Made by a program: the position numbers and the translations under genes. A DNA stretch of 64,000 nt from Bacteroidia bacterium. GTDB lineage: Bacteria > Bacteroidota > Bacteroidia > B-17B0 > Aurantibacillaceae. Where the stretch lies: contig JADLER010000095.1 of the NCBI GenBank assembly GCA_020846025.1, positions 1 through 64,000 of the forward strand, read 5' to 3'. Shown one piece after another: positions 2-535 of the stretch; positions within the stretch are counted from its first letter, which is position 1, and each line of letters begins with the position of its first letter. The notes under the pieces are model-generated. The model made no database searches and was not told the DNA's origin. It saw only the letters and a list, made by a program, of their open reading frames with translations.

Positions 2-535
2 GGAGGAAAAGATGGTATGGATTGTAGTTTATTAGTTTTTAATAAAGATAAGACCAAACTACAAATAGCAGCTGCCAATAATCCTGCGTGGATAGTGCGA
101 ACTGTAACTTCGGGAAAAGAAAACAATGTCAGTTCGAGCGCAATTACTAAGCCTGTCAGTTCGAGCGCAGTCGAGAACGACAACAACCACATCTCGACTT
201 CGCTCGATGTGACAGTACGTACACATGAAGTTATCGAAATAAAACCCGATAAAATGCCCGTTGGTAAACACGATAAACAACACATTCCATTTACCTTACA
301 CGAGTATGATTTGCAAAAAGGCGATGTTGTTTACACCTTAACCGATGGCTTCCCCGACCAATTTGGCGGAGAAAAAGGCAAAAAATTTATGAGTAAAAAC
401 CTACGCGAATTGCTTACTGCCAATGCACACTTACCAATGCACGAACAAAAACAATTACTCGAAACTACATTTACCAATTGGAAAAAAGATGTAGAACAAG
501 TAGATGATGTAACCGTGATTGGGGTGAGGATATAA
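2..535 (+). CDS. SpoIIE-type PP2C serine phosphatase, C-terminal part (5' end outside window)
   Basis: The reading frame is open from base 2 and reads GGKDGMDCSLLVF before the first internal ATG at 17, so this is the 3' part of a longer gene. KDGMD followed by a hydrophobic strand, NNPAWIV, TLTDGFPDQFGGEKGKKF and the final QVDDVTVIGVRI are the metal-binding and strand motifs of the SpoIIE/PP2C phosphatase domain. In this phylum that domain usually ends large membrane or propeller/TPR sensor proteins, and a full-length example lies at 17782-21168. Family members dephosphorylate serine on anti-sigma-factor antagonist-like partners; the partner here is unknown. Odd feature: between NNPAWIV and HEVIEIKPDKMPVG there are about 40 extra residues encoded by a palindromic DNA repeat (127-214). 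The insertion keeps frame, and the downstream DQFGG and VDD residues are intact. Confidence 0.88.
   Translation, partial: GGKDGMDCSLLVFNKDKTKLQIAAANNPAWIVRTVTSGKENNVSSSAITKPVSSSAVENDNNHISTSLDVTVRTHEVIEIKPDKMPVGKHDKQHIPFTLHEYDLQKGDVVYTLTDGFPDQFGGEKGKKFMSKNLRELLTANAHLPMHEQKQLLETTFTNWKKDVEQVDDVTVIGVRI
127..214. repeat. Palindromic repeat element inside the phosphatase gene
   Basis: A left arm starting TGTCAGTTCGAGCGCAG at 154-176 pairs with a right arm ending CGCTCGATGTGACA at 192-214. The arms match at 20 of 23 positions and are separated by a 15-nt spacer. A further partial direct copy (TGTCAGTTCGAGCGCA) lies at 127-142. TTCGAGCG...GTCGAGA palindromes of this style are, from general knowledge, dispersed intergenic repeats in many Bacteroidota genomes. 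Here the element sits in a coding frame without stops and adds residues such as VSSSA twice. Confidence 0.75.

Follow-up and report, generated by a model that had tools for sequence, protein, structure and literature searches.

The window, a stretch of 64,000 nucleotides, starts at base 1 of contig C95 in the genome of an uncultured member of the Bacteroidota (3.24 Mb in 241 contigs, 92% complete; G000 below). It opens inside a gene for a SpoIIE-type serine phosphatase, the 5' part of which is missing because the window starts at the first base of the contig. The open frame 2-535 matches the PF07228 profile (E 8.4e-11, 42.6 bits, cut-off 25), and its product matches the sequence of SiaA of Pseudomonas aeruginosa (6k4e), a SpoIIE/RsbU-type PPM phosphatase. 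The metal-site motifs TDG and DD are present, and the positions of GDF and DSTGHG fall beyond the contig end. Both TDG (341-349) and DD (503-508) presumably hold an Asp of the metal site. The features of the locus are as follows, with the basis of each in brackets.

2-535, plus strand: SpoIIE-type serine phosphatase, C-terminal part, 177 codons and stop (open frame, profile and protein match)
77-100, plus strand: NNPAWIVR, conserved, before the loop (sequence, alignment)
101-235, plus strand: loop 2, enlarged to 45 residues that consist mostly of repeat units (alignment with paralogues)
101-126, plus strand: probable decayed repeat unit, TVTSGKENN (compared with TVTSSEVEK at the same place in the metagenome-assembled genome SZAS-4)
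127-142, plus strand: truncated direct repeat copy, within a 27-nt unit also found on contigs C122 and C217 (repeat search, comparison)
153-176, plus strand: left repeat arm, 24 nt (folding)
177-191, plus strand: 15-nt spacer of the inverted pair, similar to the spacer of the C217 copy (folding, comparison)
192-215, minus strand: right repeat arm, 24 nt, inverted copy (folding)
236-268, plus strand: EIKPDKMPVGK, conserved, after the loop (sequence, alignment)
341-349, plus strand: TDG motif (sequence, alignment)
503-508, plus strand: DD pair near the C-terminus (sequence, alignment)
ENNVSSSAITKPVSSSAVENDNNHISTSLDVTVR: peptide predicted for the window protein

Loop 2 comprises 45 residues in the window and 5 in the paralogue on contig C3, which is 89% identical downstream. 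Its centre is an inverted pair of 63 nt in which 21 of the 24 positions of the arms are paired, and bases 127-142 repeat 154-169 directly (16 nt identical). The hairpin fold of the arms has z scores of -3.71 as RNA and -5.36 as DNA, none of 200 shuffles being as good in either form. An automated repeat search with a 9-nt seed listed no inverted pair, and by reading all exact segments of the arms are shorter than that seed; also by reading, the pair has the form CTGTC...GACAG and carries neither a GTAG nor a CGTC tag at its ends. A scan against Rfam gave one match only, at 519-588 outside the loop (E 0.73, far below the gathering score).

The initial annotation had proposed a palindromic repeat inserted in frame into a SpoIIE domain, and this is confirmed by the open frame, the PF07228 match and a hairpin beyond that of the shuffles. 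Its placement of the insert between two conserved strands also stands; the limits it gave (97-225) are replaced by 101-235, the 23-bp arms came close to the 24 nt measured, and the partial direct copy and the roughly 40 additional residues agree with the figures above.

The repeat is not confined to this gene. The core of the family (family A) was defined as TCGAGCGNAGTCGAGA with at most one mismatch, the reversed pattern serving as control. The own genome contains 14 such cores at seven places, in both orientations (reversed control, 0), and the core occurs in 30 of 60 related genomes with up to 79 copies; G029 and G056 have 50 and 51, again with no match of the reversed pattern in either, and inverted plus/minus pairs recur in G029. 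The 27-nt unit that precedes the window pair is common to the window, C122 and C217, and the C217 copy lies in no frame of at least 100 amino acids, a stop-to-stop frame of 89 being present there. Matches with two mismatches in the own genome (C29, C32) were excluded as possibly due to chance. The stretch on C32 is repeat-like and lies near the junction of an apparent fusion protein (L053, 892-2985), which we take to be a membrane pyrophosphatase-like protein joined to a YceI-like domain. At another locus (L345, 1444-1906, on contig C25 of G029) seven direct copies follow each other 74-75 bases apart, in no frame of at least 100 amino acids.

These copies bear on two alternatives. An ordinary coding tandem repeat, expanded at the level of the peptide and with the DNA palindrome as a by-product, would fit the direct units of the loop, which encode SSS-x-V-E-N in tandem; it is scarcely credible for a sequence that is also read in other frames, on the other strand and outside long frames, and a coding repeat without DNA mobility was rejected because of this use. 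An assembly artefact, with similar paralogues confused about 100 bases from a contig end where the insert begins, is very improbable. C95 does start at window base 1, and the matches on C122, C217, C41 and C153 are likewise no further than about 1.1 kb from the start of a contig, but the same architecture occurs in other assemblies (SZAS-4, KLAP24, G026) and inside long contigs such as the 1.8-Mb C1 of G026. The first 100 bases of the window and bases 1-150 of C122 belong to contigs that both stop inside a SpoIIE gene of the same subfamily, and the two may form a single gene that has repeats in both its loops, of which C122 would hold the 5' half.

Five of the seven places in the own genome lie inside long frames, with 25 codons or more both before and after them, namely in the SpoIIE genes of the window (loop 2), of C122 and C69 (loop 1) and of C219, and in a gene for a T5orf172/ResIII protein. 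A fifth SpoIIE gene, on C3, carries a decayed unit at loop 1. The C219 gene (L048), counted as SpoIIE by eye as the script gave it no such label, ends shortly behind a row of decaying units at loop 1; its frame lacks the rest of the phosphatase, which may be a price paid for the repeats. Over eight genomes, 30 of 111 repeat sites are inside long frames with at least 25 codons on each side, and 18 of these are in SpoIIE genes (17 by script and C219 by eye). The shares per genome (G000 5/7, G060 8/10, G014 5/7, G029 4/29, G056 0/27, G061 5/9, G062 2/7, G063 1/15) are not population estimates, since several genomes were chosen with the repeat in view (G060-G063 and G014 for repeat-bearing SpoIIE relatives; G029 and G056 for complete match lists), and they cover 17 of 23 matches in G063 and 50 of 51 in G056. 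The majority of sites in G029, G056 and G063 are outside long frames.

Repeats in frame also occur in enzymes of related genomes: ValS, MetH, SucB, LeuS, PurL and D-Ala-D-Ala ligase. Profile scores exceed the curated cut-off for ValS, SucB, PurL and D-Ala-D-Ala ligase; those of LeuS (535 bits, cut-off 548) and MetH (1097 bits, cut-off 1497) are below it, and the stretches used may cut the gene. The SucB repeat lies between the lipoyl and E3-binding domains. By reading, the MetH loop holds family A in G029 and family C in G062, the ValS loop of G029 is occupied in G063 by a CCTCTCC..GGAGAGG palindrome, and the PurL site has a decayed A-like unit in G026 and G032. One 24-nt unit corresponds to 8 residues; in ValS, MetH, PurL and Ddl, however, length differences of about -5 to +7 residues separate loops with a single unit from those of relatives, and in loop 1 of SpoIIE the difference is +4 residues. 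These four enzymes made up the flanking orthologue comparison, in which LeuS found no match but itself in the loci fetched and the query contained no SucB. As the length differences do not match 8 residues, loop sequence was replaced or trimmed as well. At three loci of G061 (L292, L296, L317) repeats stand in frame just before an apparent sorting domain, presumably the C-terminal sorting domain of type IX secretion.

The preference for SpoIIE loops was examined in 133 SpoIIE frames gathered by protein or family searches, the repeat not being used as bait; an earlier count on 118 frames was replaced, since it included loci fetched through the repeat itself. Cores of families A, B and C give 30 matches in 17 genes (reversed controls, 0). 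Loop 2 accounts for 22 of these, spread over 15 genes, and loop 1 for 4 in as many genes; three more, from 2 genes, lie in the linker that precedes the domain, and a single one falls elsewhere. Thus 26 of the 30, two of the 30 being contributed by the window itself, fall in loops that make up 2842 of 87075 residues (3.3%). Among distinct loop-2 sequences 38 of 74 are 5 residues long, and many long ones carry other repeat families or other frames; 12 of 49 long loop-2 segments contain an inverted repeat matched by at most one of 60 shuffles, with about 1-2 expected, and none of five loop-1 segments does so in the same test. The alignment of SpoIIE domains took 52 of the 65 domains found.

Repeats that end in CGTC, with no visible likeness to the window family, are clearest in L147 and L196 and are also seen in L135 and L186. 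Together, families A, B and C and the CGTC-ended repeats are read as SSEVE, LDCAR, STSLD, VRAKSR, AERSR, LSEAE and ASTSL. Because cores A and B both contain GAGCGNAGYCGA and core C is similar at its ends, these three may, judged by their letters, be variants of one stock. A related genome, G014, has seven copies of family B, five of them in SpoIIE loops. In a strict pattern survey of 87 family genomes, just 2 have the A core directly behind the WIVR strand of SpoIIE, so that the family A case is uncommon; the pattern is known to miss the own genome, where the core sits further from WIVR, a third match (G012) is in no SpoIIE frame, and G079, with the same sites as G060 by contig numbers and positions, was treated as the same genome. 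SpoIIE-type phosphatases form very large expansions in this lineage, many with TPR-like N-terminal parts; the window protein has 75 matches in G023 and 63 in G017.

The initial annotation had asked for genome copies to be mapped and orthologues compared. The copies found exceed what chance would give, as judged by the reversed control, and the comparison revealed short loops alongside long ones of varied origin; a segment conserved in distant orthologues and devoid of DNA-repeat character is not what is seen. Its central proposal, a REP-like repeat within an open coding frame between two conserved strands, is thereby supported, with translation being predicted.

The structural setting was considered on a 302-residue model of the homologue from SZAS-4 (mean pLDDT 86.5), the fold of which matches SiaA 6k4e (Foldseek E 4.2e-18). 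Strands 154-160 and 199-205 flank loop 2, in which pLDDT drops below 50 at 167-182 and 189-192, and the loop-1 repeat is at the tip of the hairpin 52-60/66-75. The insert thus fits a low-confidence stretch between hairpin strands of the modelled homologue, consistent with a tolerant position. Over 99 codons from EIKPDKM on, dN/dS is 0.06-0.11 between the window and four paralogues or homologues, a value that does not date the insert; by this measure the codons after the loop look to be under purifying selection.

Very probably, therefore, the window holds a REPIN-like palindrome in frame in a hairpin loop of a SpoIIE phosphatase, predicted to be translated and tolerated, and belonging to a dispersed non-autonomous family that survives in permissive loops. 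Two 24-nt REP-like units in inverted order would have come to lie in frame in the beta-hairpin loop. Their translation would lengthen this loop by about 40 residues, hydrophilic and flexible, which the fold would accommodate, presumably with a near-neutral effect on activity. The non-autonomous palindrome of this lineage, probably mobile as a unit, would spread through genomes, and copies landing in genes would persist where the frame is kept and the loop is permissive. The large family of SpoIIE paralogues would offer many such loops, which paralogue duplication or conversion, plus added repeat units, would later enlarge, with replacement or trimming of loop sequence as part of the process. 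Repeats of this kind can, it seems, change the shape of proteins and leave them intact. Points that weigh against this reading are the Y1_Tnp searches described below, which yielded no mobilising enzyme, the paralogue comparison, which defined neither a target-site duplication nor a precise empty site, the loop lengths that do not match a unit of 8 residues, the two genomes only in the strict survey of the A core, and the possible common stock of families A, B and C.

Duplication or gene conversion could also account for the window insert as such. It is a possible reading, if on balance doubtful, that the insert came from a repeat-bearing sister paralogue and that only some earlier event was a landing. 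The paralogues on C122, C69, C3 and C219 carry the repeat at the same loop-1 place in differing stages of decay, the window loop starts with TVTSG and two SZAS-4 loops with TVTSS, three G014 paralogues share an identical ASTSLSP insert, and the 27-nt unit is common to the window, C122 and C217. However, loop 2 in other paralogues and species differs in repeat family, orientation and reading frame, a variety for which conversion by itself does not account, and other enzymes carry repeats too. On the reading preferred here, that of a dispersed family retained in permissive loops, we infer rather than count the number of independent landings behind this variety.

That repeats gather in two loops of a single expanded family (34 PF07228 matches in the own genome) might instead indicate that the loops are adaptive, the repeats providing new loops that diversify partner or substrate choice among SpoIIE paralogues and the insert being domesticated. 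This is decidedly unlikely: the loop sequences drift and differ between paralogues, no conserved peptide is seen beyond the DNA repeat, and the same repeats are found in housekeeping enzymes. A broader proposal, rather unlikely as well, is that REP-type palindromes of several, partly unrelated families repeatedly colonise one hairpin and are a source of paralogue-specific loops under selection; if true, selfish repeats would diversify a signalling family, the SpoIIE phosphatases of Bacteroidota.

As a dispersed palindromic family in permissive loops, the repeat can be placed among known classes. A REPIN is an inverted pair of short imperfect palindromes, dispersed in a genome. The window family consists of short imperfect palindromes with many dispersed copies in one genome and forms inverted doublets with a short spacer (153-215 being one hairpin), and 'REP-like' is right for its architecture. 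The GTAG or CGTC end tag of REPs is absent from the window pair; the separate family of L147 and L196 begins with CGTC and may belong to the CGTC-tagged REP superfamily. MITEs are marked by terminal inverted repeats together with a target-site duplication; the window repeat shows inverted arms, and no clean empty site or duplication is definable from the paralogues. In-frame insertion into protein genes, the mark of Rickettsia palindromic elements (RPEs), is found at the 30 of 111 sites described above.

REP-associated tyrosine transposases (RAYTs) were sought with the Y1_Tnp profile, which gave no match at E 0.001 in the own genome (92% complete). More than 100 matches were obtained, and the scan for nearby cores covered 30 loci that were fetched and, in addition, 15 stretches selected around weak matches: the family A core was near Y1_Tnp in 0 of 30 and 0 of 15, and in two of the 15 a family B core lies about 1.4-1.6 kb away. 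Among 25 genomes, Y1_Tnp is present in 11 of 13 with at least 20 A copies versus 4 of 12 genomes of the same family that lack A copies (Fisher p 0.015, the groups having been cut after seeing the data and one of the 13, G056, being outside the family). G016 and G017 have 51 and 55 A copies and no Y1_Tnp match, and none of the loci is linked. A RAYT as mobiliser is thus not supported, no linked Y1_Tnp locus having been found despite the association with copy number.

In the literature searched, with most subscription journals outside its scope, no paper was found with the letters of the repeat in any of four forms; among the matches listed for REP, RAYT, REPIN, palindromic repeats and SpoIIE in Bacteroidetes, judged by title and start of abstract, none dealt with the repeat or the loops. 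The window protein resembles SiaA/RsbU-type PPM phosphatases in sequence, homologue fold and C-terminal metal-site motifs, and differs in a loop enlarged by repeat DNA. With REPIN/RAYT systems the repeat shares inverted, short, imperfect and dispersed palindromes; in contrast to them, no RAYT linked to the window repeats was found.

In-frame palindromes are already on record in Rickettsia and several REP-rich species (PMC3733652). RPEs lie in frame inside many protein genes, and expression of the decorated proteins is reported for some (PMC10969869, PMC3733652). The window repeat shares with them palindromic units in frame in protein genes; it differs in phylum, in size (24-nt units and a 63-nt inverted pair versus about 150 bp) and in the recurrence of several repeat families at one loop within a single protein family, the likeness being one of description. 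PMC3733652 also describes intragenic GTAG- and CGTC-tagged REPs, single and paired in open reading frames and with clusters coding for 43-82 residues, different REPs at about the same site in recB of X. campestris and X. oryzae, and CGTC repeats in Bacteroidetes. Unlike these, the window family has neither tag, and a hairpin of a large phosphatase family is one of the main sinks here. What the present case contributes is the convergence, in uncultured Bacteroidota, of several repeat families on a single loop within one family of proteins, with further copies in core enzymes. Nature has here set up an experiment, many times replicated, on the sites at which a protein tolerates an insertion, and the idea that variation in protein length is supplied by selfish DNA becomes testable. 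By analogy, the best reading is that the window repeat works like RPEs and the known intragenic REPs.
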